From a virus: a stretch of DNA of 26,897 nt. The translations under genes were made by a program, and so were the position numbers. The notes beneath the pieces were generated by a model. That model was not told where the DNA came from and made no database searches. It saw only the letters and a program-made list of their open reading frames with translations. This document shows positions 2,350 to 26,897 of this stretch, one piece after another (the first letter of the stretch is position 1; every line of letters begins with the position of its first letter). Where the stretch lies: positions 1 through 26,897 of the IMG/VR virus record IMGVR_UViG_3300029448_000051; one strand, written 5' to 3'.

Positions 2350-5300
2350 TGCCAAAAAAGACATGGAATATTAAATCTTTTGCAAAGGGAATGAACTTTA
2401 AAAACACTAGCAAAGATATAGAGCCAGAAGGCTTTGAATTCTCTAACAACTATATATCTTTTAGTGAAGGTAGTATATCTACTGAAGGTTTATTTGATAA
2501 TGTTCCAGGTCTAAGTCACGATGTTGGTTGTTTTCAAGAGAACTTATCTTTTCAGGGGACATCAAACTTATATAAAGTGTTCCCTGAAATGGGGTTTAGA
2601 AGATTTGGAAGAGCTCAATATGCATCTAGTGGTACTAAGTGGAAAGAAGAAGGAAGTACAAATGATGATTTTACAGTAGCTCATGGATTAGATGTAGGTT
2701 TGAAAATTGTTATTATATCTTCAGGAGATCATATTGTTTCAGATAGTGGAAGTAGAAATGCTAGTCTAATTAGCACAACAGGAGTTGTAAGTAATGTTAT
2801 TGATTATAATGAATTTCAAATAGCAGAGTTAGGAGTAACACCTGATGATGGAGATGAAATATTTTATGCTATATTTTCAGACTATGATACTGATTTATAT
2901 TTAAATAGCAATCCTAGTGTTTCTATGAATGAAAACAAATTTTTATTTAGAGGAAGTCAAGGGAAATTTGGTATATATAACATAGGGCAATACAAAGGTT
3001 GGTTTGGTAGAACTATTGATAGTAATGTTAATGCATTTGGAAATGATAGTTGGTTTTTTGATTCACGCTATTTGTGGGATACTCAACAACATTCAAGATA
3101 TGGTTTAGAATCAGAGATTTCAAGCACATTAATAAATGATGCATTTTATGAAGGAAATGTTTTTAGATTATCTTTAGAAAGCCCTAATCAGTATTATGGG
3201 GGGAGATGTAAAAGGCCAGTAGGTTTATATGGAATAGATAGAAGACAGCATAGATTTTCAGAAGGAGAATCTGTAATTTTTAAAGGATGGTATCCATTAC
3301 GTTCACATTGCTTAGCTCCTCACGAATATCATAGATTAGATGATTTAACTACTGAAGATACAAGTGGCAATACAGATTCATCTAACGATTTAACATTTTA
3401 CAAAGGCGGTGGTACTATTGCGGTAGATGCTAATGCTGGAACTACAGATTTATTAGCAACTGCTGCTGGAGACCCTACAGGTCCTGCAGGTTATAATTAT
3501 CCTGCATCTGGTCCTCTTGTTAATCAGGTTGCCATGTCTATTGCTCATGGAGAAGGAACTTCTTTAGATGCTCCAGGAGATTGGCAGTTTACTACAGGAA
3601 GTGTACATGAAAAATTAAAATTTGGAATATCTTTTATATATGATACTATTCAAGATGAATTTGGATTAGAGTCATCTATATCTCCAATTACAAACACTGA
3701 TGGAAGTGATGGTTGGGTAAGTATGTCTGGAGATAGTCCAACTGTAGATAAGGCTTTAATATTGTGGTATTCTTTTTATAGAGGTGAAAATAATTTTATC
3801 GATAATCAAAATATGATGTTTGCAGATTCCTTAGAGTCTGGAGTAGCATCTCCAGCAGTTTCTAGTATTGGAGAATTTAGAGGTTCTGGAATGAACAATG
3901 GTTATTCTAATAGTAAATGTTGGAATCCTCGAATTGTAGGAGCTAGAATATATCTAATGGGAGATTTATCAGGTAAAGATGCAGATGGTTACAATGAATT
4001 TCAAGAGCCTTTATTTTTAGCTAAAATTGATTTTGGTGCTAATAAATATGGTCAATCACATGACAATATTCAATCTTCAGCTTGGACTAACAATAGCAAT
4101 AACGCTACAGGCGTATGGGGACAACAAATAGTTATTCCTGGTGTTCCTGTATTAACATATAAACTAATGAATGGCTATGATTATGATGATAGTATACATT
4201 CTTGGTATAAAACATCAGCTATTGTAAATAGAAAATTATATGCAGGTAATGTATCTTATTTTGATACAACAGAAGTAGATTGGGAAAAAAGAAAGCCAGT
4301 TAATAAACCTGATAGAATTTTAGTATCACCTACTAATAAGTTTGATATTTTACCATCTAAAAACTATCTAGACGTTATGATAGGCGATGGTCAAGATATT
4401 GTCAAGCTTCAAGCATTTAATTCTGAATTATTAGTTTATAAAAATGATGATATGTTTATTATTAATTGTGAAGGTGAGTATGAAATATTAGGGTCTACAA
4501 ATTACAATATGGGTGTTAGTGACTCAATGAAAGTTACTAAAACACCTAATGCTATATATTGGATAAATGAAAGCGGAGTATGGGGATATGATGGAGAAAA
4601 TGCTATCTCAAATATTATTCAAGAGACAATGGACAGTCAACAATGGTCTAAAGAAATATACAGTGAATCTAGTTTTATAGAGTATGAACCTAAGCTATCA
4701 ATGTTATTTATATTTACACGCTACCAAGGAGAAAACTATAGTAGTTCAATGAATCCTAGTAATATATTATGCATTAGCACTACAAACGGTTCTATTTTCT
4801 TTAAAGGAGAATTAGCTATTAATAATTTAAATGCTATACCGTCTGGTTGTATAGTAGCTGATAATAGTTTATATACAGCAGTATCTAGTGGTGTTAATGC
4901 TAATCAAGGATTATTAAATGTTTCTAATGTTACATCTCATGCTATTCCTGTTAGACAGTCTGGTATATGGGAATTTACTCTAGATATAGCAGGAGCTAAT
5001 GATTATCAGTTTGTTGGAAATGAGTATAAAAGACTTATAGTTAGATATAGATCTAGCGAAGTTTCTGAAGCTGATAATTGGGATGCTGTTAATAGTAATG
5101 ATTTTGCAGTTCCTAATATAAGTGATCCATCAGTTACTACGATAGAAGAAATTCAAAATTTAATTAACATACAGTTAGACCATTTTAATACTAGTGTTAA
5201 TAATTCGGTGTCTACTGACACTCATCCACTCGGTTCTACTCCTGAATATGCAGATATATATGAATGGAACTTAGATGCGTCTATTGTAGATAATGGTCTA

Positions 5301-12399: not shown

Positions 12400-12998
12400 T
12401 GCATAGTAAAAAACATAATTACAAGATAGGTTCTGGAGAAGGTATGTTTGAGACTAATGCATATAGAAAAAGGCCTACTTATGAAAGAGTTAATAGTTTT
12501 TTAGATGAAATGGGTTCTGATTTTTCAGACCATAATGTGTATTTATGGGGCTCTTGGCCTGATAAAAAACAAACTTGGGATGTAGATTTTTTATTAGAGA
12601 ATCCAGGAGAATTAGACTATGAGCAAATGGAAACTATTTCTAAAAATGCTTTAAAGTCTAGTTTAAACAACAATCAATTTCTTGCTGACGTTGGATATAC
12701 AAATAGGCCTATTGTGCCATTTAATAACTATAGGGATATGTATGCAAGGGGTAAACAACAATCTGCCCATAATGGCTATGTATTTGGCGATAAATGGATG
12801 GTTGATGATAAGTTATACAAAGATAGAACTAAATTTAAAAATGGAGTAGTAATACCAAAATCAAATAATATATTACAGGTTAATAGTTTGATGCCTTACC
12901 CTAAAATGATTAATGCTATAGAAAATAATCAATATGATAAGTATTATGCTAATAAACCTATATTAATTAAAAATAGAAAGAAAAGTTATGGGATATAA
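12399..12998 (+). CDS. Nucleotidyltransferase-fold-like protein (GS...DVD motif)
   Basis: A 199-aa protein. Residues 46-66 read NVYLWGSWPDKKQTWDVDFLL: a strand, G51-S52, eight spacer residues, then D61-V62-D63 in a second strand. This is the core pattern of the DNA polymerase beta-type nucleotidyltransferase superfamily (hG[GS]x7-13Dh[DE]h). A helix (70-89) then leads to the strand FLADVGY (94-100), whose D97 is well placed for the third metal-binding carboxylate. The C-terminal half (about 105-199) is basic and carries no recognised domain. Translation is coupled by TAATG at 12397-12401. It lies among internal virion protein genes, so it could modify nucleic acid or protein in the virion or infected cell, or be an inactive relative. 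The substrate is unknown. Confidence 0.55.
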   Translation: MHSKKHNYKIGSGEGMFETNAYRKRPTYERVNSFLDEMGSDFSDHNVYLWGSWPDKKQTWDVDFLLENPGELDYEQMETISKNALKSSLNNNQFLADVGYTNRPIVPFNNYRDMYARGKQQSAHNGYVFGDKWMVDDKLYKDRTKFKNGVVIPKSNNILQVNSLMPYPKMINAIENNQYDKYYANKPILIKNRKKSYGI

Positions 12999-14445
12999 AC
13001 AGGCTTACGATTTACATGTAAAAAAATTAGCTAATGATCCATTGAGCGTAGCCTTAGATGCATTATATAATATCTCTAGTGCTAAATACAAAGCAGATGA
13101 TAGCATAAGACAAGAACGAGAGATAGAAGAAAAATTTAATAGAAATTTAAGAAGCACAGAAATTAGTAGATTGTCTAGTGCAAACCCAGATATATCTGTA
13201 ACTGATTTTGGAAATCCTATATATAATGAAAGTGATTTTAACGATTATAAAAATGAAATAATAGAAAAGAAAAATTTAAACAAGATGGGCAGTCAATACA
13301 ATCCTATCGATGGTGTTATGTCAAAAGAAGCACAACAAGACATGTTTACTTATGGAGACACTAGATATAGCTTAGATGATACAGAAGGCATATTATCTCA
13401 AGAAGATTTATTTAATTATGATGCTTGGTTATTAGGAGAAAATGGTTACGGAAGAGATGTTGCAAGAAAACATAACCATAGTGGCATTCTATATGAAACT
13501 GTTGAAGATACTGAATCTGCTTACTATGGTAAGTATATATTAGATCAAGGTGATTATTTTGATTTAAGAGAAAAAGGATTATTGTCAGATATGATACCAG
13601 ATGCTTCAGGTAATTATATACTAGATGAACAAACAAGAAATGGTATTATAAAAAAATATAATTATTGGAGAGAAGGATTTGTTTCTTCTAGGTCATTACC
13701 TAATAAAAGTCAATTATCAAATTTAATATCAGATGAAAATACTAGAGATTTGCAATTTGAAAATGATTTAAGAGAAAATAAGAAATATGAAGGCGTGTTT
13801 GATCAATTAGATAATTGGAAAAATATACTCAATCCAAATACAGATGGACCTAGTATTATAGATGAAAATGGTGACTTTTCAGCAGACTATTTAGTTGATG
13901 GTGAACTTGTAAATGAAGCAATCAAACCAAAAGAGTTTATGGAAAGATACCCACTAGTATACAATTGGATGAAGAGTAATTTTACTATTGAATCATTATT
14001 TCAAGACATTAGTAGTAATGAAGACTTACAAACGCAATTAGCAGAAATACCTAATATTAAAGAGTATTTTTATCATTTATTTGGTCAGTTACAAAGTGTA
14101 GAGAGTGAAAGAAGAAAAGCAGGAATAGGCGTAAGTCAATATCAACATTTAAATAGTTCAATGATTATGGGCGAAGCTAGAGATAATGTGTTAAATGATT
14201 TAACTTCTAGCGAACTATTTAATGGTGCTCTTTATGATGAAAAAAGATTTAATGCATTAGATGCTTCTGAAAAGAAACTATTAATATCAAGATTGCGTGA
14301 CTTAGAAGCTCAGTATGCTGATAGAAATAGTTTAAATTATAGTCCAAACTCATTGCAGTTTTTATCTTTATATGGCTATGGAGATGGAGCAACTATGCCT
14401 GGTGCAGCTTTGTACAATCTAACAAAAGAATTGAGAGGTAAATAA
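12988..14445 (+). CDS. 485-aa putative internal virion protein, unrecognised
   Basis: The start overlaps the upstream gene by 11 bases (ATGGGATATAA). The protein is charged, mostly helical and without TM segments. Features visible: a lysine-rich N-terminal helix (about 5-55), a coiled, highly charged stretch near 40-60 (RQEREIEEKFNRNLR), an acidic mid-region rich in Asp/Tyr (100-230), and C-terminal helices (about 330-430) with long EKKLLISRLRDLEAQY. No catalytic motif is seen. It is set between ejection-type genes and the giant polymerase gene, so a virion core or ejection role is most likely. The comparable slot in T7 is held by gp15, but no sequence similarity to gp15 is evident. Confidence 0.55.
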   Translation: MGYKQAYDLHVKKLANDPLSVALDALYNISSAKYKADDSIRQEREIEEKFNRNLRSTEISRLSSANPDISVTDFGNPIYNESDFNDYKNEIIEKKNLNKMGSQYNPIDGVMSKEAQQDMFTYGDTRYSLDDTEGILSQEDLFNYDAWLLGENGYGRDVARKHNHSGILYETVEDTESAYYGKYILDQGDYFDLREKGLLSDMIPDASGNYILDEQTRNGIIKKYNYWREGFVSSRSLPNKSQLSNLISDENTRDLQFENDLRENKKYEGVFDQLDNWKNILNPNTDGPSIIDENGDFSADYLVDGELVNEAIKPKEFMERYPLVYNWMKSNFTIESLFQDISSNEDLQTQLAEIPNIKEYFYHLFGQLQSVESERRKAGIGVSQYQHLNSSMIMGEARDNVLNDLTSSELFNGALYDEKRFNALDASEKKLLISRLRDLEAQYADRNSLNYSPNSLQFLSLYGYGDGATMPGAALYNLTKELRGK

Positions 14446-15875
14446 TGGCAATGGATGACGAAATACAAGAATTGTTTAATGTTGCAGAGATTGAAACTCT
14501 TGGTGAATCTAAAATGGATAGTACTAAAAACGCTGAACTAGCAGAAGTAAATAGATTAGCTAAAATAGATAGTTTAATACAAGATAGTACTGACCAAGTT
14601 ACAAAACATTTAAAAGATTATACTACAATAAAGGAAATAAATTTACTAGATAGTCAATTTAAAGATGAACAACCAATGTCTATATTGTTTACTAATGAAG
14701 ATTATCAAGGTAGAAGTGAAGCAGAATTATATTCTTTATTAGAAGAAATGGTTGTGCATGAATCTACTACAAATGTTACGGATGATTATAAAAGATTTAA
14801 TGTCCTTAGAGAAGATTTAGTGAACGTACACAGTCCTTATCAATCTGCTTTTACAGGAGGAACTTCTGACGCTGGATATGGCAATATGGTTCAAGGTACT
14901 ATACCAGGAGAAACGTCACCTAGAGATATATCAGAAGATGATTCTTTAATTAATATAGGTAGTTATCTTCAAGGAGCTAATAGTATTGATGAAATGTGGC
15001 CATCTGACACTAAGCATAAAACTACTGGTGGTGCATGGTATGAATTAGGAGGTTTAAAAGGTGGAGGAGTTATGTTAGACCAAGATGAATTTTGGGAAAC
15101 AGACCCTCATGACTTTAGAAGTGCTACTATAGCTAGAATGGTTGCAAGTGATCAAGGTATTAGAGATTTAGTTTTAGGAAGTCATAAATTTAATCAAACA
15201 ACAAATAAGCATGAAATAACTGGTGGTATACTAGAGTTAATTAAATCTTTCGGATTGACTGGAGAATCTAATACTTGGGAAAGTATGAAAGAATTTGTTG
15301 GATTTAGGTCTAATGCTATGAAAATAGTAGATATGGCTTTAGAATCTAAAAAAGCAGGTAGAGATTATTTTTTAACTGGTAATTACAATAGTGAAAACAG
15401 TCCATTTGAAGTAGGAACACGATACCATCGCTCTGGAATTAGTAGAGAAATGCATGATAGGCTATCTAAGTATCCTGAATCTCAAAGAAAAATTATATTA
15501 GAAACATTACAAGATGCTGTAGATACAATATATGCTAAAGGATTAGCAATTGAAAAGCATGCTAATAATCTTGTAGATGAGTATGAGTCTTATGCTAAAA
15601 AGTTTCCAAATCAAAAAGGTTTAAATTCTACACTTCAAACTAATACTGCAAATAAAGATTTAGCTAAAGCTCAGCAATATAAATCTGATTTAGTTAATTC
15701 TATTGATGCTTATAAAAGTGTCTCAGGAAAAGATTTTGATGTTTATGAAGCATTAAATGCTCTATCTATGACACAATTAAATGAAGAGTTAGATAAGATT
15801 CCAGATGAGTCAAGAACACAAGCTGTTGATGATTACCTAATACAGTTAACCGAAAATACAGGCGCAGCATACTAA
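14445..15875 (+). CDS. 476-aa putative internal virion protein, unrecognised
   Basis: Starts at the TAATG overlap at 14443-14447; ATG 14451 is an alternative two codons on. Residues 1-85 are helical and acidic with repeated short EIxELF/AEVNRLAKID-type stretches. The middle has a Gly-rich patch (GGAWYELGGLKGGGVMLDQ, about 193-211) followed by DEFWETDPHDF. The C-terminal third (about 320-476) is long amphipathic helix, likely coiled coil. There is no membrane segment or catalytic motif. It ends 10 bases before the giant polymerase gene and is probably co-translated and packaged with it. No function can be assigned from sequence alone. Confidence 0.55.
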   Translation: MAMDDEIQELFNVAEIETLGESKMDSTKNAELAEVNRLAKIDSLIQDSTDQVTKHLKDYTTIKEINLLDSQFKDEQPMSILFTNEDYQGRSEAELYSLLEEMVVHESTTNVTDDYKRFNVLREDLVNVHSPYQSAFTGGTSDAGYGNMVQGTIPGETSPRDISEDDSLINIGSYLQGANSIDEMWPSDTKHKTTGGAWYELGGLKGGGVMLDQDEFWETDPHDFRSATIARMVASDQGIRDLVLGSHKFNQTTNKHEITGGILELIKSFGLTGESNTWESMKEFVGFRSNAMKIVDMALESKKAGRDYFLTGNYNSENSPFEVGTRYHRSGISREMHDRLSKYPESQRKIILETLQDAVDTIYAKGLAIEKHANNLVDEYESYAKKFPNQKGLNSTLQTNTANKDLAKAQQYKSDLVNSIDAYKSVSGKDFDVYEALNALSMTQLNEELDKIPDESRTQAVDDYLIQLTENTGAAY

Positions 15876-15885: not shown

Positions 15886-18800
15886 ATGAGTCTAGAACAA
15901 GATTTAGCTCAATTTTTGGCTAGAGATGAGAAAAGAAAAACTCAGCTAGGACAATTACCACAAGGATCATCTACTGATCAAATACTTCAACAAGAAGAAT
16001 TACCAGTTCAAAATTCAGTTTATTCTAATGCGTTAATGAATAGTGCTGTAAATGCAGATAGAGGTCCTTTAGCAGAGTTTGTAGGTGAAATGGCTTGGGG
16101 TTTTGCTGATGAATATACTTTAGGTGGTCTTGGCATGGCTGAAGAATATGATTGGCTTGAAAGGTCTACAGGTTCAGAGAAGCCACAAGAACTGTTAGAA
16201 GGTTTTAGAGACTTAGCACAAGGCGGTAAAAGATTAGTTGACCCTTTAACAGGTGAGTCTTTTAGACCAGGGCCTGAAAGTTTTGCAGGAAAACTAGGTG
16301 GCGGTATAGGTGTAGTAGGTGGTTTTATATCAGGTGCTCCAGCAAAAATATTAAAAGTTGGTGGAAAAGCATTAACATGGGCTACTGCAAAAGCTGGCAG
16401 AAAAGCAACCTTTGCTAAGACTTTAAAAAATATACAAAAAGCTACTACTCCTTTAACAAGCTCTGACCCTGCTGCCCAAATTTTTAATAATGCTTTACAA
16501 GGCGGAGTTTCAAGAGCTGTTATTAATGCTGCTAAACCAGGAATTTTAAATAATACAGATAATTTTGTAGCACATGTTAGTTCAGGGATTAAAGGAAGTA
16601 TAGATGAAGCAGTAGAATCTGGTTTATTAAATAGAAAAACTGCAGAATCTATCGGTGATGTTTACACTAAGTATTTATCAGATAGACCTCTAACTTCTAT
16701 GATAGATTATTTTACAACAAATGCTACAAATTCTAGGTTAGCATATACAGTTGGTGCTATAGTTCAAGAAGGCTTGCAGTTTGGTATATTAGATGGTATT
16801 AGAGCTGGAGTGCATGTTGGATTTGGCTTAGATGATAAAAATCACCATGAATATGATTTAATGGAACCTGTATGGGGTTTAGGTATTGGTGGTGCATTTG
16901 GTGCTTTAAAATGGATGAGACCTGCAGGTAAATCTGCATCAGGTCAAATAGACTTTAAATCAGGTATAAGGGGTCAATTAGCTACAAGTTCTAAATTACT
17001 TAAAAAAGATAGCTACCAAACTTTAAAAACTAAAACTGAAGCTCTTGGAGCTGATGCTAAGGTCTTAGGTCAGCAAGTACAAACTGTAAAAGTTTTAGGC
17101 AAAGACTATTCATTTGATATGACTAGTGTTGAATCTGAAGTAGTAAGAATATTAGATGCAGCAGGTTTAAAAGCAACAAGTCAAGCTAAAGGAGATTTAG
17201 TAAGAGAAGTATTAGCAAAAACTTCTAATAAGTATGGTAAAGAATTAATTAAATGGGCTGGTAAAAATGAATGGGCTAATGTTGCTGAAAATTGGCCTAA
17301 GATGGTTTTAGGTGCAGGTATTATGAATGCTAGACTATACTACGATATGTATAATGGAGAAAATGTTGGTACCGATGATTTAATGGTTAATGTATTATTA
17401 GGAGCTTATCTTAATAGACGTGGTACACCAAGAAGAACAGATATGTTTCCAGAGCAAATACAAAGATTGCGTTCTGGGTTACATACATTAGGTGTTTTAC
17501 CTCCTGAGTACATTCGAACTAACCCATTTAGAGTTATGCCTACATTAGACCCAGCTAGAAGCAGCTCAATGAATCCTTTTGCATCTGATATAGAATTAAA
17601 TAAAATTGTAGCTCATGCTGAAAAACTTGGTTTTACAACAAATAATTTCGATAAGATAGACACTCCAATTAGTAAAGAAACTTCTCCAGGAATGTTTGAC
17701 TTTACAACAGGCTATGGAAAAAGATCTGTAAATCAGTCTGGAGAACCTTTACCATTGTTTCATGAATTCTATAGATTTTTAGAAGGAGCTGCAAATAAAA
17801 AGTATGTTAAAAATTTAGACAATATTTCTGAATCAGCAGCAAAAGAAATAGAAACAATGCTTCAAAAGAAGTTTAAAGATGAAGCTGATATGAAAATGTA
17901 CATGCGTAAAGTTGTTGATAATGCTGGTGATAGATTTGAAAACGAAATTGTAGGTGCAACTGTAGATATGATGAAAGTATTAGGTCAAATTACAGGTGGT
18001 AAAGGTGATGGTACTATTGGTAAAATACCTTCTACAATTACAATTAGTGAAACTATTATTAAAGCTGCAGAAGAAGGTAAGCTTCATAATTATATAGAAG
18101 AGTTTAGAGGAGTACAAAATCAAGCTGATGCTTTAAGAAATTTATTAAAAAAAGCTAACATTATGGTTAATACAACTTTTGAATTAATGAGAGCTAATAA
18201 AAAAGAAACTGACCAAGCATATATTATTAAAGATTTTGCTCAAATTAAAGCAATGAGAGATGTTATAAACAATAGAGAAATTGCTATTAATAATGAGTTA
18301 GGTATTAAAAATGATGCAAGTAATAGATTCCAATTTGAAAATGCTTGGCAAATGACTACATATTTAAAAAATAGAATAATGAACAAGAAAGCTAGTTCAT
18401 TTTCTAAATTACTAGATAGAAACTTAGAAGTTAATCAAGATGTATTTCAAGCATTGTTAGATTCTGGATTATTACAAGCAGATGGTTTAAATTTAAATCC
18501 TAGAAGAATTGGAAGTCTTGAACAAGTAAAGCTTGTAGACAATAATTTTGTTTCCATTAAAGACCCTAAACTTGTTGGTGATAGTCAAATGTTTTTAAAT
18601 TCTATATTAGAAGTATTAGGAGCAAAAGGACAATATGGTGTATCAGAAGCTCCTGTTAATATTACAGTATCTCAAATACAAAGATTAAAATCATTCTTAA
18701 ATAGCAAAGGTCTTAATGTAGATCCTGCATCTTTATCTATGTTCTCTACAGAAACAGTAAGAAGAATAACATTTCAAAACTTTAAAGATTCTAAATTAAC

Positions 18801-21800
18801 TCAAGAAAATGTAGGTGTTTTTCAAGCTTTATCTTCTTTAGGTGGATTAGAAGACACTGGTCAAAAGTTTCATTTAATGAAATATAGTAGAATTAAAGAT
18901 GGAAGACCAGTAGGAATATTAGCAAGTAAAATAGCTTATGAAGGTTCTACTGAATCAATCAAAGAAATTGTTAAAGAATATAATTCTTATGTAGAGTCAA
19001 TGAAAACTAATGGAAAAGTACAAGGAAAGAATGAAAGTTTTGTATCCGAAGGTCAAACATTTACTATTACAAATGAAAATACTTTTTTAACTATTCAATC
19101 ATTATTATATGATTCTATACATAAAACTAATGGTAGTGCTAGAAAAGAACTTATGGATTTTATGCTTTCAGATATAAGCAAAAGTAAAGCAAAAGATGCT
19201 ACGCTTACATTTATGTCTGCTTATCCTGAAAAAACGTCTAAATTAATCAAATTAATGATAAATAATGGTACTTTAGAACTTAAAAAGAATGACGGAAGTC
19301 TTGATGGCACATATGAGTATTATGTTAATAAGGAGAAATTTGGAAGAAAAGATATACAAGACAAAATAATCAGTTTTATAGAAAGATATGGTATTAATCT
19401 TGATACTTTAGAAGTTATGACATCTAATGCTGAAAAACATTTAGAAACTTATCTAGAAAATACATATGGAGTAGGAGATCATAAAGCTGGTATTACAGTA
19501 GACAAGTTTTTCCAATCTTATTTACCAAATAGTCAAAGAAGTCCTGAAAAAATGAATGATTATTTAACTGATAAACTTTTTGATATAAATAATAACTTTA
19601 GAGGTTATGAAGCTATCAATGATATTATGACTGAAATGACTATTCCTAGAGGTAAAGAACAAAGAGCTTATAATGATATTATACAAATATTATCTAATAA
19701 GATTCAAGGAAGCACAAAGAAAGTATTTTACTTTTCTGATGGTGAAGTTAAAGTTAAGGACACAGATTTAGCAACTTATAAAACTCCTTATTTTACTATG
19801 TTAGATAAATTAGGTATTAAATATGCTCTAGTTGATGGCATGTCACATGATTGGGTTTTACATCCAGATACTAATAGACTGTTATATCAACCATTAGATA
19901 TATTTCAAAATGAGTCTAATATCATAGGAAGAGCAGATAAAAGAATGATTCAACAAAGACGTGAATTGTTTATGGATATGTTATCTAAAAAAACTGATAT
20001 AGAAGGTTTTGAATCAGGTTTAACTATGATTGATATGCCTGGATTAAAAATGTCATTAGCTGTAAGTAAAGCAGATGTTAATGCTATTAAAACAGCTTAT
20101 AATGAAATGTACACTAGACAAATTAAAAACACAGAAGAGGGTAGTTTAAGTAGAAAGAAATTAGAGTTTTACAAAAAAAGATTAGAAGAAAGTGTAAGTG
20201 TAGATGATTTAGCAAATCCTATGGCATTACAAATGATGATTGCAGAATCTATGTTTGTAGGAGCTAATAAGAATGAGTTTATTAAATATCTTGAAATGGG
20301 TCCTGGTAATGCTGATTTAAATAAAATGTTTGTTGGTAGACAAAAGTTATTTAATACAATGAAATTTAAAAGATTAGATAAAGATTTATTACAAGCAATG
20401 CAAGAGTCTAATATGTTTAGTAATTCTAGCTCAGAGTATAGACTTTTAGACAAATATATTAAAAAGAATAAAGTTGGAGTTACTGTTTTTGATGATAGTT
20501 TAGGTAGTTTTAATCTTAAACAATTATTTGAAGCAGAAAATGGAACAGGTTCTTGGCAAAAATATTACGGAGATAGAGCTAAAGAATCTTCTCATGATAG
20601 TATTAGTTTTATATCTAAAGAAATGGCAGATTTTTTAGGAATAGCATATGGAGCTCCAGGTTCTAGGGTTTTTAAACCAGTCATTAGTTCTCAAGGAGAA
20701 GGAAATTTAATGTATGGTAAAACAGAATTTGTTTATGACCCTAAAATGGATGCGGTATTTAAAGCAAATCCAGGTTTAGATATATTAATGGCTGCTAGTG
20801 CAGAGAAATTAAAATTATATCAAAATAAAGATTTAAATAATGTTGCAAGTGAAATGTTGCAAGTAGAAAGAGAGTCGTTTTATACTACAGGAAAATTTAA
20901 TAGTAATAAAATTATTGATATACCTTTAGAAGCAATAGGTATACAGAAAATACCTGATCACTATACTCCAGGTAAAATATCACCTAGTGTTCTTAATACT
21001 CATACAGATATTGATTTAGGTAAAAATCTATACAATGATTATTTTGCTGACAATTTAGCTAGAGCTTCAAAAAATATAACTGAAATATTGAAAAATCCAT
21101 TCATTGAATATGAAATGATGAAACGTATAAAAGAAGGACAAACTACTGGTAAATATGAAGATTTAGAATTGCTAGACAGTTATGATGCTAATAGTAGTTT
21201 GCAATTAGAATGGTTAAAAACTAGTCCTTATGCTTCTATTGATGTATTTGGACCTGGTGCTAAAATGAATCCACTAAAAGCAAGGTATTTAGACCAAGCA
21301 ATGGCACCTAGTACAGAGTATATGTTTAATAACAAAAGATATAGATTTGGTGGTAAATCTACCATCATGCAAGATATGAATACAGCTTTAAAAGGAACTA
21401 AATTTAATCCAGAAACAGGAGAAATAGAGCGTTATGGAGAGATTATGCTGCCATATGATATAGGAGCAGAAGGTATAGATTTTGCTAGACGTAATTATGA
21501 TGTTAGAGTTATTAATAACAAAACTAATAAAGTAGAAAAAGCAGAAGATATATTTAACAAACTTGGCGGTTCAAAAACTTTTACATATTCAGATATTATG
21601 CAAAGTGCTAAACCTTTAGAAGCATTGTTTAATGTGTTTGAAAGAGGTGCTTTAAAAGATTATGATATTGCAATATCTACTATGAGATTTCCAAGAACAA
21701 GACCTAATGATTTAGCTTTATTAAGATTAAGAGGATTTAATGATAAAGGTTCTGGCAATGTAACTAAAGTAAATCCGTTTGATGTATATAATATATTTGA

Positions 21801-24513
21801 AGGTGATTATGATATTGATGCAGTAGATTTTACTTGGGCTGGTAGTAAATCTTGGTATGAAAATATTAAACGTGCTAACAAAGTATTTGTTCCTACAGCA
21901 GATGCAACTAAAACTAGTGAAATATTACCTGAAATTGAATTAGGTTCATTAAATCCTGAAAAAGCTAGCAGAGAATGGAATGCTTTAAATGGAAATCAAA
22001 GAGCTTTATCTGGAGCTAGAGGATTAGTCCAGGCTACTTCGGCTTTAGTAAAACACGCAGATAATATTGCTGCTACTAAACTAAATCCAGATAGAAGTAC
22101 TAGAAAGGTTTTATTAAGAAATCCTAATAAGAAGGAAGGAGAAATAGGTTATTGGGAAGTAGAAATGGATTGGAATAATGGAGATTTTCATTTAAGACAA
22201 GCATTAGAAGGCCAAGTATTACTAGATGCCTCTTCTCCTGATCCTACTTTATTAAACAAAGTTAAAGATTGGAGATATGATTTTCTATTTCCTGAATATA
22301 ATGTTGACCCATTACTAAATAAAACTCTGTCTAAAGACAATTTTATAAATACAGATGGTTCATATAATACAACAAATTTAAGAGCTTTTATTAATGGTAA
22401 AAAGAATAGTGATGGCGAGTATGCTAATCATAGAGTAAGGTTATTTAGAAGATTTGAGTATGTATCAGAAAATGGCAATCTTGTTAAAAAAGAAGTTAAA
22501 TTACAAGAGCTAGATAAAGATTTAATTAAAAATATATTTAGTGAATACTCTAAACTATTAGAAGTAAGTCCTGGTAGAAAAGTTTATGGCAATAATGGTA
22601 GTAGTAAAAATGCAAATTATGAAGATATATTAATTAGAGGAGAAAGATACTTTACTAACGCTAAAAACTTTAGAGGCAATCAATTTAATAAAATCAACTA
22701 TAAGAAAGAATTTGACGAATTTCGTAAAACTGAATATTATAAATACAGTCAAAGTGTTAACTCTATGCTAGGTAATCAATTTATGGATTATTTTGCTCCT
22801 AAATCATTTAAATATACAGATGCTAAAGGCAATGTTAAATATGATAAAAAGAAAAAGTATGCTACTAAGTCTCCATTTGCTTCTGGAGTTGAACAAAATA
22901 TGAGAGATAGGTATGACGGTGTTCAGGGAGGTGTAGTAGAAAGATCTATAAGAGAAATATATATGAAAGACCCTCTTAATACATTACATACAGACACTAA
23001 AGTTTTAACTAAAGATTCTTTTATTAGACAAGAAAATCTTGCAAATGAAATACTGCATAATGATAATATGAGTATTCAAGAAATGAATAACTTTATACCT
23101 CAATTAATAGGCAATATCAATAAAGATATATCAACTATTAAAAGATTGCAATATCAATGGGTTCAGTTAAATAAAAGTAGATTTAAAGGCAAAAAAGCCA
23201 AGATGGATGAATTGAATAGACAAATTGCAGAATTAAAAGAAAAAATTAAACCTTTATTAGGTAAAGCTTATTGGAAGAGTAGAAAAATAAAAGATGCTGA
23301 CAGGTTTAACTTAGTAGATATATCAAGTGATAAAAATATTATTGATGGAACAGTACAGTATTTTACACTAGGTAATTTAGCTAGAGCTTTTCCTATGAAT
23401 AAAAATGCTTTTGGTTTTAAATCAGACCTTAAAGAATTGAGAACTTTCATAGGTTCTAATTATGCTGGTCAAAGAGATTTGTGGGGATATGGTAACTACG
23501 GAAGAAAAACTATTGCTACTGATGAAGTTAAACAAAGAATGTCTGAAGTTAGAAATACTAAAGAAATAGAAACAAGAGCAGATGAAATGCTTGCTAAGGC
23601 TGTTTCTAAGCATGGTATTGCATTTTTATGGGAATTTGCTATGCCAAGCTCAACTAGCATGGAAAATAAAATAGGAGTATTTAATGGTAATGTTATGCCT
23701 GTTGCAATTAATCCTAGTGGTAATTATAAAAGAGCTATTAGGTATCTATTAAAAGGCAAAACAGGACAATTAGACCCATCGGTATACCAAAGAACTAGTC
23801 GAGATCAATTTAAAGCTGTTTTAGAAGGATTAGCTGAAGTTGATTTTACTTGGAGAAGATTTTTTAATGGTCAAAATAATTTTATGCCTCTTGATGCAGC
23901 AGAAGTATCTAAATTAATTACATATCAAATGCCTAAATACTCTTGGAAAATGAATAGCATGTTCAGTAAATATACAGATATTAAATCTGATAAAGAGTTA
24001 AGTCAATTTAATCCATTTGGAATGGGTAAAAAATATGATATGAATATTGCTTTCTTTAGATCTTTATCTAACTTGGATAAATCTGTAAATGGAAAAACTT
24101 TTGAAGACGGAACTAGTATACTCTCTTATACTAATCAATTAATGATGGAAAATGGTTATCTTACTCCACAAAAACATTTAGCTCTTATGGCTGATATAAG
24201 CACTAAATTAGGACCTATGATGGAAAGAGTATTTCCTAGTACTGTAGATATACATACAGGCGTTGCTCAACCATTAAGACCTTTTGATATGTTAAACAAT
24301 CCTATGTATATTTTACTAGGTGGAAGTCATATGAGTGGTTCTGGTATGAGTTTAGACCCTTGGAAATCAATGAGTCCATATGAAAAATCATCTGTTAATA
24401 AAATGTTACGACAAGTAAATGATATGAAGAATACAAAAAAAGATGTTTGGCATGAGTCATTTTTTGAAACTGATTTAAGATTAGATGTTAATAAAAAACC
24501 AGAGGAGTGTTAA
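15886..24513 (+). CDS. Giant virion protein with a single-chain, two-barrel (DPBB) DNA-dependent RNA polymerase core
   Basis: A 2875-aa protein. The N-terminal part (1-350) looks like an ejection or polyvalent protein: FADEYTLGGLGMAEEY (73-88), a Gly-rich hydrophobic segment (137-165), and further Gly/hydrophobic stretches (286-310, 326-343). Residues 350-1500 are largely helical and unassigned. The polymerase core follows. Barrel 1: D1571 (HDSISFIS), then K1597 (VFKPVIS), G1611-K1612-T (YGKTEFVYDP) and D1632...S1638-x-x-K1641. Barrel 2: R1934-x-P1936, L1948-R-G1950-F, N1963-P1964, then D1974-Y-D1976-I-D1978, matching the order R-x-P...G...hP...NADFDGD of cellular beta'. The order beta-like then beta'-like on one chain is that of crAss-like phage virion RNAPs, YonO and QDE-1. 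Residues after 2010 (ALSGARGLVQATSALVKH) may hold the bridge-helix area; this is a guess. The role inferred is injection with the DNA and transcription of early genes. Confidence 0.75.
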   Translation: MSLEQDLAQFLARDEKRKTQLGQLPQGSSTDQILQQEELPVQNSVYSNALMNSAVNADRGPLAEFVGEMAWGFADEYTLGGLGMAEEYDWLERSTGSEKPQELLEGFRDLAQGGKRLVDPLTGESFRPGPESFAGKLGGGIGVVGGFISGAPAKILKVGGKALTWATAKAGRKATFAKTLKNIQKATTPLTSSDPAAQIFNNALQGGVSRAVINAAKPGILNNTDNFVAHVSSGIKGSIDEAVESGLLNRKTAESIGDVYTKYLSDRPLTSMIDYFTTNATNSRLAYTVGAIVQEGLQFGILDGIRAGVHVGFGLDDKNHHEYDLMEPVWGLGIGGAFGALKWMRPAGKSASGQIDFKSGIRGQLATSSKLLKKDSYQTLKTKTEALGADAKVLGQQVQTVKVLGKDYSFDMTSVESEVVRILDAAGLKATSQAKGDLVREVLAKTSNKYGKELIKWAGKNEWANVAENWPKMVLGAGIMNARLYYDMYNGENVGTDDLMVNVLLGAYLNRRGTPRRTDMFPEQIQRLRSGLHTLGVLPPEYIRTNPFRVMPTLDPARSSSMNPFASDIELNKIVAHAEKLGFTTNNFDKIDTPISKETSPGMFDFTTGYGKRSVNQSGEPLPLFHEFYRFLEGAANKKYVKNLDNISESAAKEIETMLQKKFKDEADMKMYMRKVVDNAGDRFENEIVGATVDMMKVLGQITGGKGDGTIGKIPSTITISETIIKAAEEGKLHNYIEEFRGVQNQADALRNLLKKANIMVNTTFELMRANKKETDQAYIIKDFAQIKAMRDVINNREIAINNELGIKNDASNRFQFENAWQMTTYLKNRIMNKKASSFSKLLDRNLEVNQDVFQALLDSGLLQADGLNLNPRRIGSLEQVKLVDNNFVSIKDPKLVGDSQMFLNSILEVLGAKGQYGVSEAPVNITVSQIQRLKSFLNSKGLNVDPASLSMFSTETVRRITFQNFKDSKLTQENVGVFQALSSLGGLEDTGQKFHLMKYSRIKDGRPVGILASKIAYEGSTESIKEIVKEYNSYVESMKTNGKVQGKNESFVSEGQTFTITNENTFLTIQSLLYDSIHKTNGSARKELMDFMLSDISKSKAKDATLTFMSAYPEKTSKLIKLMINNGTLELKKNDGSLDGTYEYYVNKEKFGRKDIQDKIISFIERYGINLDTLEVMTSNAEKHLETYLENTYGVGDHKAGITVDKFFQSYLPNSQRSPEKMNDYLTDKLFDINNNFRGYEAINDIMTEMTIPRGKEQRAYNDIIQILSNKIQGSTKKVFYFSDGEVKVKDTDLATYKTPYFTMLDKLGIKYALVDGMSHDWVLHPDTNRLLYQPLDIFQNESNIIGRADKRMIQQRRELFMDMLSKKTDIEGFESGLTMIDMPGLKMSLAVSKADVNAIKTAYNEMYTRQIKNTEEGSLSRKKLEFYKKRLEESVSVDDLANPMALQMMIAESMFVGANKNEFIKYLEMGPGNADLNKMFVGRQKLFNTMKFKRLDKDLLQAMQESNMFSNSSSEYRLLDKYIKKNKVGVTVFDDSLGSFNLKQLFEAENGTGSWQKYYGDRAKESSHDSISFISKEMADFLGIAYGAPGSRVFKPVISSQGEGNLMYGKTEFVYDPKMDAVFKANPGLDILMAASAEKLKLYQNKDLNNVASEMLQVERESFYTTGKFNSNKIIDIPLEAIGIQKIPDHYTPGKISPSVLNTHTDIDLGKNLYNDYFADNLARASKNITEILKNPFIEYEMMKRIKEGQTTGKYEDLELLDSYDANSSLQLEWLKTSPYASIDVFGPGAKMNPLKARYLDQAMAPSTEYMFNNKRYRFGGKSTIMQDMNTALKGTKFNPETGEIERYGEIMLPYDIGAEGIDFARRNYDVRVINNKTNKVEKAEDIFNKLGGSKTFTYSDIMQSAKPLEALFNVFERGALKDYDIAISTMRFPRTRPNDLALLRLRGFNDKGSGNVTKVNPFDVYNIFEGDYDIDAVDFTWAGSKSWYENIKRANKVFVPTADATKTSEILPEIELGSLNPEKASREWNALNGNQRALSGARGLVQATSALVKHADNIAATKLNPDRSTRKVLLRNPNKKEGEIGYWEVEMDWNNGDFHLRQALEGQVLLDASSPDPTLLNKVKDWRYDFLFPEYNVDPLLNKTLSKDNFINTDGSYNTTNLRAFINGKKNSDGEYANHRVRLFRRFEYVSENGNLVKKEVKLQELDKDLIKNIFSEYSKLLEVSPGRKVYGNNGSSKNANYEDILIRGERYFTNAKNFRGNQFNKINYKKEFDEFRKTEYYKYSQSVNSMLGNQFMDYFAPKSFKYTDAKGNVKYDKKKKYATKSPFASGVEQNMRDRYDGVQGGVVERSIREIYMKDPLNTLHTDTKVLTKDSFIRQENLANEILHNDNMSIQEMNNFIPQLIGNINKDISTIKRLQYQWVQLNKSRFKGKKAKMDELNRQIAELKEKIKPLLGKAYWKSRKIKDADRFNLVDISSDKNIIDGTVQYFTLGNLARAFPMNKNAFGFKSDLKELRTFIGSNYAGQRDLWGYGNYGRKTIATDEVKQRMSEVRNTKEIETRADEMLAKAVSKHGIAFLWEFAMPSSTSMENKIGVFNGNVMPVAINPSGNYKRAIRYLLKGKTGQLDPSVYQRTSRDQFKAVLEGLAEVDFTWRRFFNGQNNFMPLDAAEVSKLITYQMPKYSWKMNSMFSKYTDIKSDKELSQFNPFGMGKKYDMNIAFFRSLSNLDKSVNGKTFEDGTSILSYTNQLMMENGYLTPQKHLALMADISTKLGPMMERVFPSTVDIHTGVAQPLRPFDMLNNPMYILLGGSHMSGSGMSLDPWKSMSPYEKSSVNKMLRQVNDMKNTKKDVWHESFFETDLRLDVNKKPEEC
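21805..21819 (+). other. Codons of the predicted RNAP catalytic loop D-x-D-x-D
   Basis: Encodes D1974-Y-D1976-I-D1978, preceded by YNIFEG and followed by AVDF. In the family the three aspartates hold the catalytic Mg2+ ion. Cellular enzymes have DFDGD; here Ile replaces Gly between the second and third Asp. The call rests on the motif plus the matching upstream R-x-P and N-P positions, not on an alignment. Confidence 0.75.
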
Positions 24514-26897
24514 ATGGGTTGTATGCCATCAAAAAGACATCAGGATATATATAATTTAGGTAAAAAGTTTATGAATGAACCTGAAGTTAAAGCTATATTT
24601 CAAAATCCTAGTGAACTTGTATATAAAAAATACCATCAAATGTTTGGATTTAAACCTAGTGAGTGGAAAGCATTCCAACCTACAGGTGCAGATGTTCGTA
24701 AGTTTAAACAAGAAATGAAGTATATGCTTAAACAGATTAAAAAAGACAAAATAGGTGGTGTGCTTGCATCTAATATATATACTACTTCAGGAGTAGTAAG
24801 ACGTAATCCTATATTGGCTACATTGTATGATGGCTTTTTAAATGTTAATCATGCATTTAAAGGTAGACAAATTATTGGAGACCAAGATTTTAGTAAGATT
24901 TTAGGTTCTTTAAAAAACGAAGCTACTGTTACAGGTATGTTATCAGAATCTGGTACTTTTAAAAAGGCAACTAAGAGAGCAAAAGATTTAGAATCTAACA
25001 TAGAAAGACTTTTAGTTGATGAACAAAACAATATCCCAGGAACAGATAAAAAATTAGCAGCAGCTATGGGTAAATTAGATCAATTCTTGTCTAAAGGAGA
25101 AGGGAAAATATTTAAAGATTTTGTAGAATTAATAGAATCTAAAGACAAAGGCTTAAGGTCTATTCCTGCAGTTCAAGATATAGTAAAAGATAGATTAGGT
25201 AAGAATTTAAATTCTGGTAATATTAAAGATATTAAAAATGCTATTATTAACTCAGGCATTACACAATCTGCTAATATGCAAAATGCATTAATTAAGTATG
25301 TAGATGTTATGCATTCTCAGTATAATATATTAACTAATGGAGTCAATGCATACATTAAAGGTCAACAAGCTGCATTATTAGCTAAAGGTATTACTGATGT
25401 AAAAGCATTAGAAGAAGTTAGAGTTAAGTTATTAGAAAAGTTTTTACCAGATGAAAAAGCTGGTTATTTCCCTCACTTTAGATATGATTTGAATTCTTTA
25501 TTTTTAGATAATTTAATGCCTAAAATACAGAAGCTATCAGAAAGTACAGAAATGGGAAAACAAGGCGGAATAGATGCCGCTATTAAAGAATTAGACGTAT
25601 ATGTATCTTCAAGAGTGAAAAAGAGAACTAAAAACTTAGATAGTAAAATGTATTCTATGAATTTTCCAGTAGTTGTTAAAAGATATATGGATGAAATAAA
25701 TAGATTTAACTTTGTTGCACACACACAGCAATATACTATGGAATCTTTAATGCAAGCAAAAAAAGCTTTTAAACAAGGTAAAGATTTAGAAGGTTATGGG
25801 TCTCAGTTAGTTGAAATGATTAAAGATTTAAATCAAGCACAGATGGGGACTAAAGATATTAGAAGTGATTTTTTTAGAAATAGTAGTAGAGCTTTACTTA
25901 ATTTAGAATTTGTATCAAAACTTGGTTTTAACATGAGATCTGCTGCTAGAAACGCTACTCAAGGACTATTAAACTTTGTAGAGTTTGGTAGTTTAAATAT
26001 GAAAAAATCTCGTGACTTCTATAGAGATGAGCAAATGTCTCGTTTAGTAGATAAAGCTATGGATGAGTCTGGTATAAGATTTACAGAATTAACTCCTGAA
26101 CAATTAGAAATTGCTGGTAAAAATGTATTTAATGAAAGAGTACAGTTTGACTCTGGTGGTGAGATAACATTTAAAAACCCATCTAAAATGTCACAGTTTG
26201 CTGATTTAACTGGAAGACTTGCGAGTGTTTCTGGTGGAAAAACATTAGTCCCTTATTTAAATATGAGAGGTATAGAAAACGCTAATAGAAGGTATACATA
26301 TCGTTTAGCTTTTTCTAAAATGTATTCTGATTTAAAGACAAACGATGGCTTTAGACAAGTTATGATTGAACAATTTCAAAAAACTAGAAAACGTGATATA
26401 TCATCTAAAGAATTTGATGCAGAGTTATTTAAAAGGTCTAAAAACTATGCTGAAAGAATGACTACTGCTTTACATTTTGATTATTCTACTGTATCTAAGT
26501 CTAAATTAATGCGTTCTCCTGTTGGTAGGTTTATGTTTCAGTTTCAACATTATGCTCATAAGTTTGCTGAATATAATTTTGGTATTATGAGAAATGCAAA
26601 AAATTCATTAATGGCTGGAGAAGTAGGTTTTAATACTGAATTAGGAAAAGCCTATAGAATGGGATTAGTATATGCAATAGGCCCAGCTATGATTAGTGCA
26701 ATTACTAAAAATGATTGGTTTAGAATGATTCAACATGATACAGCTTCTAGAATATCTCAATGGTGGACTTTATTTACTGGTGATGAAGAAGATTTTCAAA
26801 ACGCTACATATGGCAGAGGAGCTATAGGTGCATTATTTGGATTTCCAGTATTATCTGATGCTTTAGCATTAGGCGAGTTATCAGAACTTTGGGATCT
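24514..26897 (+). CDS. Second giant internal virion/ejection protein, 3' end beyond the window
   Basis: The reading frame is open from ATG 24514 to the last base: 794 codons with no stop, so the true protein is longer. GAGGAG (24502-24507) lies six bases before the ATG, which immediately follows the RNAP stop. The N-terminus is MGCMPSKRHQDIY. The protein is mainly helical and basic. Notable blocks are LGFNMRSAARNATQGLLNF (470-488), RSPVGRFMFQFQHYAHKF (about 667-684) with the aromatic AEYNF, and a hydrophobic segment MGLVYAIGPAMISAI (716-730). The 'LGFNxRxxxRNxxQ' helix and FxFQFQHY block are of the type found in giant phage ejection/polyvalent proteins, possibly the LPD group; this is from memory, without a search. 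The M-G-C start has no signal peptide, so it is not a lipoprotein signal. It probably acts with the RNAP as part of the injected core. Confidence 0.65.
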   Translation, partial: MGCMPSKRHQDIYNLGKKFMNEPEVKAIFQNPSELVYKKYHQMFGFKPSEWKAFQPTGADVRKFKQEMKYMLKQIKKDKIGGVLASNIYTTSGVVRRNPILATLYDGFLNVNHAFKGRQIIGDQDFSKILGSLKNEATVTGMLSESGTFKKATKRAKDLESNIERLLVDEQNNIPGTDKKLAAAMGKLDQFLSKGEGKIFKDFVELIESKDKGLRSIPAVQDIVKDRLGKNLNSGNIKDIKNAIINSGITQSANMQNALIKYVDVMHSQYNILTNGVNAYIKGQQAALLAKGITDVKALEEVRVKLLEKFLPDEKAGYFPHFRYDLNSLFLDNLMPKIQKLSESTEMGKQGGIDAAIKELDVYVSSRVKKRTKNLDSKMYSMNFPVVVKRYMDEINRFNFVAHTQQYTMESLMQAKKAFKQGKDLEGYGSQLVEMIKDLNQAQMGTKDIRSDFFRNSSRALLNLEFVSKLGFNMRSAARNATQGLLNFVEFGSLNMKKSRDFYRDEQMSRLVDKAMDESGIRFTELTPEQLEIAGKNVFNERVQFDSGGEITFKNPSKMSQFADLTGRLASVSGGKTLVPYLNMRGIENANRRYTYRLAFSKMYSDLKTNDGFRQVMIEQFQKTRKRDISSKEFDAELFKRSKNYAERMTTALHFDYSTVSKSKLMRSPVGRFMFQFQHYAHKFAEYNFGIMRNAKNSLMAGEVGFNTELGKAYRMGLVYAIGPAMISAITKNDWFRMIQHDTASRISQWWTLFTGDEEDFQNATYGRGAIGALFGFPVLSDALALGELSELWD

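Follow-up and report, generated by a model that had tools for sequence, protein, structure and literature searches.

A candidate injected RNA polymerase of the two-barrel type with a long putative N-terminal leader in an unclassified virus

The window analysed in this study (bases 1-26,897 of the 55,595-base IMG/VR virus record IMGVR_UViG_3300029448_000051) carries one very large open reading frame (ORF), whose product of 2,875 amino acids (aa) we call P0001. Judged from its sequence, P0001 is very probably an RNA polymerase (RNAP) of the two-barrel type. Based on our observations, we suggest, with somewhat more confidence than doubt, that it is carried in the virion and injected, its N-terminal leader working in the manner of the virion RNA polymerase (vRNAP) of phage N4 on a crAss-type core, and that the long region ahead of this core is composite. 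We place P0001 in a new family within a kind of polymerase known from other phages, the injected one; its putative leader of ~600 residues merits study, most of all the block of residues 451-650.

What carries the assignment as a polymerase is the set of catalytic motifs, together with the distances between them. The GDYDID motif of the metal triad is invariant in all nine sequences covering the site, down to ~20% identity, and its context in the P0001 family (R-x-P...D...G...GDYDID) recalls that in gp66 of Cellulophaga phage phi14:2 (R-I-P...SDFDIDK) and in the giant structural protein of Flavobacterium phage Fpv2 (R-T-P...LDYDIDK). Two lysines, K1597 and K1612, are invariant in 6/6 sequences and lie 15 residues apart, spaced as in gp66. 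These motifs are of the two-barrel type; a search for the T7-like catalytic domain (PF00940) gave no match in the record and is uninformative, because the controls did not match either. When the family profile was compared by hhalign with seven crAss-type RNAP cores, the best match covered residues 1932-1983 with DxDxD in register (E 0.06 at full length, 0.0023 when restricted to residues 1900-2000). A column-shuffle control, which used family region 1400-2250, gave a higher score for one of 200 shuffled targets (30.6 vs 29.7; shuffle mean 17.2).

Several results weigh against this assignment. Neither phmmer, hmmsearch nor tblastn gave a significant sequence match to any RNAP, a hidden Markov model built from the crAss-type cores found nothing in the P0001 family, and the DPBB-B part alone had no profile match among these cores (E 0.42). 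When the profile was limited to three close relatives, hhalign settled on residues 1154-1264 instead. Both AlphaFold models were poor (mean pLDDT 46.3 for residues 1150-2349, where both barrels fell below 50, and 46.5 for the other), and Foldseek found no match to either in PDB at E 0.001, nor did any row stand out in VIA-align with the core model. With models of this quality, the fact that polymerases are unlisted in fold searches is no evidence against a polymerase, and the excerpts of PMC10770324 state that similarity outside the DxDxD region is often undetectable among two-barrel polymerases. Because the models are poor, we infer, rather than observe, all domain boundaries and the ejection role. 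Virion location and membrane contact are likewise proposals.

Pfam, the PDB sequences and PHROGs (best E 0.082) yielded no match to P0001, nor did tblastn at E 10 against 50,697 phage records. Scans of IMG/VR yielded five other full-length relatives (identities of 75% for P0007, 76% for P0008, 43% for P0010, 44% for P0011 and 45% for P0013), three partial ones (P0012, 52%; P0014, 28%; P0015, 20%) and the C-terminal pieces L003 and L004; a pattern scan of genome contigs gave 44 matches, none of them a relative. A BFVD search with the N-terminal model added two unnamed relatives, at 74% and at 14% (E 3e-6 for the latter). Since the relatives are unclassified viral contigs of IMG/VR and unnamed BFVD models, the family is evidently already present in databases, without a name. 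Among the open-licence papers listed for virion and two-barrel RNAPs and for crAss-like, flavobacterial and marine phages, none showed a description of it, a silence that is weak evidence of novelty, as subscription papers mostly lie outside such a search.

A preliminary description of this DNA had placed about 1,500 residues of non-catalytic sequence ahead of the RNAP core. This long region was confirmed as part of one continuous ORF, and the end proposed for it, residue 1568 (base 20590), lies ~30 residues before K1597, the first polymerase barrel motif. Residues 350-1500 were indeed without a known motif, as Pfam, PHROGs and the PDB sequences gave no family, but just chance-level or repeat-artefact rows. 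When the N-terminal profile was run against PDB, PPR-repeat matches with E values as low as 9e-12 appeared; these were rejected as an artefact, being one 33-residue helical hairpin summed across designed repeats at ~5 bits each, and HTH_60, STAND and similar Pfam rows were dropped as below cut-off. The helical nature claimed for more than 1100 of these residues has a low-confidence AlphaFold model as its only basis.

The first 350 residues had been described as Gly-rich and hydrophobic, of which the composition stood and the hydrophobicity did not. Residues 131-350 contain 14.1% Gly and 11.8% Ala, and the densest 100 residues of P0001, starting at position 120, include 32 glycines plus alanines (G+A), a value reached in 1/1000 shuffles. 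An N-terminal G+A peak is present in all six full-length members: it was reached in 3/1000 shuffles for P0007 and in 0/1000 for each of P0010, P0011 and P0013, it starts at residues 64-120 in all five shuffle-tested members, and in P0008, measured without shuffles, it amounts to 31 from residue 66. Elsewhere, such a peak is missing from gp66 (666/1000 shuffles) and found in phi14:2 gp67 (8/1000) and the Fpv2 polymerase chain (7/1000). Within residues 1-350, the most hydrophobic 19-residue window has a Kyte-Doolittle mean of 1.27, which was reached by 1241/2000 shuffles, so this region is not unusually hydrophobic.

Residues 451-650, which the preliminary description does not mention, show the strongest conservation within residues 1-1568. 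Residues 451-600 share 57-60% identity with P0010 and P0011; DPBB-B reaches 60-73%, and the remaining 75-residue windows N-terminal to DPBB-B lie at 24-52%. The ratio of nonsynonymous to synonymous substitution rates (dN/dS) of residues 451-650 was 0.066, 0.137 and 0.269 in three pairs (core residues 1561-2110: 0.125, 0.202 and 0.247), i.e. the lowest of eight segments in two pairs and the third lowest in the remaining one. In every segment dN/dS was below 0.45, which indicates purifying selection. Given the identity and dN/dS values of its segments, the whole N-terminus is, by its sequence, maintained coding sequence and not filler.

The first triad aspartate is preceded by 1,973 residues in P0001 and by 1,973-2,001 in the five further full-length members. 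The corresponding numbers are 1,360 for gp66, 3,221 for Fpv2 and, for gp50 of crAss001, 1,486 from the ORF segment or ~1,482 from the annotated start. As these counts are joined by several Crassvirales in which the polymerase sits within ORFs of 13-14 kb, a long N-terminus is the rule for crAss-type polymerases. The extension had been regarded as much longer than a polymerase needs; this holds against gp96 of Thermus phage P23-45, in which, according to the excerpts of PMC10770324, 778 residues precede DxDxD, the first 326 are dispensable and the active fragment begins 452 residues before DxDxD, but not against the crAss-like enzymes with their 1,360-1,480 or more. P0001 exceeds gp66 and gp50 by ~490-610 residues, roughly the part with ejection-type features. 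The single 1,500-residue module first proposed gives way to what are probably at least two parts, a ~600-residue leader and a remainder of crAss-type N-terminus length. The last few hundred residues of this remainder (650-1568) probably belong to the enzyme.

In the reading that we favour, residues 1 to ~650 would form a leader outside the enzyme, made of the Gly/Ala-rich residues 51-350 and the conserved block 451-650. This leader would most likely seat the protein in the virion, guide its passage through the tail and contact the membrane or co-ejected neighbours, as proposed for the N-terminal domain (NTD) of N4 vRNAP. Residues 650 to ~1280 are comparable in length to a crAss-type polymerase N-terminus, and the polymerase's own N-terminal lobes probably start somewhere within residues 1280-1530. 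An ejection-type leader fits the Gly/Ala-rich start, the setting of the gene amid candidate late virion genes, and the precedent of N4. The excerpts of the preprint PMC12633501 describe a lipid-binding NTD of ~900 residues ahead of the RNAP domain, which inserts into nanodiscs and for which roles in ejection and membrane insertion are proposed, including assistance in building a channel in the inner membrane as the polymerase refolds on the cytoplasmic side.

The suggestion of an ejection module agrees with composition, gene position and precedent; no profile similarity to known ejection proteins emerged. On this side of the balance, the N-termini of six members had no match above chance in PHROGs, hhalign of the N-terminus against the giant internal virion proteins of ICP2, PA11 and ICBM2 was not significant, and the Kyte-Doolittle scan of residues 1-350 revealed no transmembrane-grade segment. 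N-terminal homology to gp67 and Fpv2 was rejected as well, because hhalign scores (15.2 and 17.9) were no better than the shuffled-target means (17.4 and 17.1, 60 shuffles each). By eye, the three share EG, followed after ~40 residues by GGxFG, which we keep as a resemblance only.

The order of events that we propose is borrowed from N4 and crAss001; within it, our data support just the polymerase signature and the upkeep of the leader. The polymerase chain would be packed into the head with neighbour proteins late in infection; at adsorption the leader would enter first, or dock on co-ejected proteins and the membrane, and the remaining chain would follow in pieces, refold inside and transcribe the early genes. 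As far as the excerpts of the respective papers go, crAss-type RNAPs are virion components (PMC10172136, PMC7886860), and the cargo proteins of crAss001, including polymerase-associated ones, are stored in the virion, with ejection in a partly unfolded state proposed for them (PMC10172136).

Among known systems, P0001 most resembles gp66 and its Crassvirales relatives in being a single chain with two barrels (candidate ones in P0001), a D[FY]DID triad with an upstream R-x-P, the K-x14-K spacing and a long N-terminus, encoded among virion proteins (candidate ones here). For gp66, the sources were its sequence and other papers. Unlike gp66, P0001 has ~610 more residues before the triad and no significant similarity beyond the motif; its record measures 55.6 kb, against ~100 kb for the crAss-like phages with gp66-type polymerases, and its Gly/Ala-rich leader lies in the polymerase chain, whereas in phi14:2 it lies in the neighbouring gene gp67. 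The Fpv2 protein (ANB40355.1; 4,401 aa) shares with P0001 a DYDID motif, at 3222, and a Gly/Ala peak, at 366, but is much longer, and hhalign detected no homology between the N-termini. N4 vRNAP (gp50, ~3,500 aa) is injected and has the layout that we suggest for P0001, i.e. NTD, RNAP and C-terminal domain; its catalytic domain, however, is T7-like and not two-barrel, so any likeness would be convergent. P23-45 gp96 joins a two-barrel virion RNAP to a protein related to delivery, as P0001 may do, but in gp96 the RNAP is the N-terminal part of a tape measure of 5,002 residues, with only 326 residues before the minimal active fragment.

It is possible, though we think it rather unlikely, that the enzyme includes most or all of residues 350-1500, as lineage-specific RNAP lobes, a clamp or cleft-blocking parts, with a short leader only. 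The 2,180-aa gp66, solved as one chain (PDB 6vr4), itself has ~1,000 residues before the first barrel, one relative, cr50_1, matches it upstream to residue 406 (tblastn) or 201 (blastp), and dN/dS of residues 651-1560 is similar to that of the core. Against this reading, residues 650-1570 had no profile match among the N-terminal portions of crAss-type RNAPs; homology to RNAP lobes, which the preliminary description had named as the sign that this stretch is part of the enzyme, is thereby neither shown nor refuted. The activity of P23-45 gp96 from 452 residues before DxDxD (PMC10770324, excerpts) would place the start of the core near residue 1520 in P0001. We consider it improbable that the N-terminal part recognises promoters or DNA in place of a sigma factor. 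No transcription-factor homologue was identified among the annotated proteins here, and an HTH_60 row appeared in three of nine members (best E 0.02); this row, however, is far below the curated cut-off and located at residues 1154-1198, residues 51-350 are Gly/Ala-rich, and no early promoter motif was established in a look at the intergenic stretches. A dead or incidental polymerase, i.e. a giant structural or pilot protein with barrel relics, would suit the apparent place among virion genes and the extreme divergence, but is highly improbable with a triad invariant in all nine sequences that cover it and a core under strong purifying selection.

The features of P0001 and its neighbours are collected in Table 1.

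Table 1. Features of the polymerase ORF and adjacent genes (positions in the window)
Feature	Position	Strand	Basis or remark
P0004, 485 aa, upstream neighbour; candidate co-ejected protein	12988..14445	+	kept in relatives
P0003, 476 aa, immediate upstream neighbour; candidate co-ejected protein	14445..15875	+	kept in relatives
P0001, single ORF with ATG start, 2,875 aa: N-terminal extension, probable two-barrel RNA polymerase core, C-terminal region	15886..24513	+	full-length relatives 2,874-2,901 aa
Residues 51-350, Gly/Ala-rich, ejection-like leader (putative)	16036..16935	+	composition
Residues 451-650, conserved N-terminal block, constraint about that of catalytic core	17236..17835	+	
Residues 651-1280, less conserved, mostly helical in low-confidence model, length akin to crAss-type RNAP N-terminus	17836..19725	+	
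Residues 1281-1584, probable polymerase start (N-terminal lobe / duplex-binding helix)	19726..20637	+	solely spacing vs gp66 and P23-45 gp96
Residues 1585-1650, candidate first barrel (DPBB-B) with K1597, K1612	20638..20835	+	K-x14-K spacing as in gp66
Residues 1930-1990, candidate second barrel (DPBB-A)	21673..21855	+	metal triad GDYDID
GDYDID, D1974/D1976/D1978	21805-21819	+	
Residues 1991-2175, conserved, where bridge helix and trigger loop would lie (putative)	21856..22410	+	
Residues 2251-2875, C-terminal region, conservation peak 2701-2775	22636..24510	+	
P0002 family, next gene, ~800-920 aa, directly 3' of polymerase ORF	24514..26895	+	kept in relatives

The gene order P0004-P0003-polymerase-P0002 may correspond to that of ejection operons. 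A homology of P0004 to phi14:2 gp68, encoded two genes upstream of gp66, was rejected as chance: the blastp match (E 2e-4) was the sole one of the record's ORFs of 60+ aa against phi14:2/crAss001 parts, and when profiles were compared, 39 columns aligned at E 0.069. At the junction between the polymerase stop and the next ATG (24490-24516) the window reads TAAATG, and several relatives have a TAATG overlap; a Shine-Dalgarno-like GGAG lies within the last polymerase codons, and in most relatives Cys is the last residue before the junction. Most members of the P0002 family start with M.C.PSK, and the stretch GRFMFQFQHY is invariant. In the rest of the record (L006, L007) PHROGs identified a terminase large subunit, a portal and a major head protein. 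The terminase is closest, at ~25% identity, to Zobellviridae and similar phages, and the major head protein had no match among phage records at E 0.001. A run of N near L006 2385 is an assembly gap within the downstream gene.

Two further loci were noted. A conserved leader precedes a DnaB/primase-like gene (L006:7745-7897, L024:16915-17046 and L029:17694-17788, all on the minus strand); its ends (ATAAGGGG...CCCCTTAT) are complementary, and blocks within it (ACTGGTCCT.TAAGTCC and GGCAAAGGAATATGTGAG) are conserved. No Rfam family matched it at threshold. At L006:9002-12203 (minus strand) genes lie close together for what we take, from sequence appearance, to be ThiF-like, JAB-like and short ubiquitin-like proteins, to which PHROGs assigns no function; the ThiF-like protein also occurs in L003, L004, L029 and L032.

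How a phage polymerase exceeding 300 kDa gets through a narrow tail and functions afterwards is an open question, stated for N4 in the excerpts of PMC12633501. If a second polymerase type, by all appearances unrelated, also had a leader that can be separated from it, the parts needed for delivery could be told apart from those of the enzyme, and this in a compact phage of 55 kb. Tentatively, a two-barrel lineage in small unclassified phages may have independently reached the N4 layout, with residues 1-650 as a new ejection module, residues 451-650 as its docking or pore-forming part, and leaders that switch across crAss-like phages between a separate gene beside that of the polymerase (phi14:2 gp67) and the polymerase's own chain (here and in Fpv2). 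The P0001 family would also add a divergent branch to the two-barrel polymerases.

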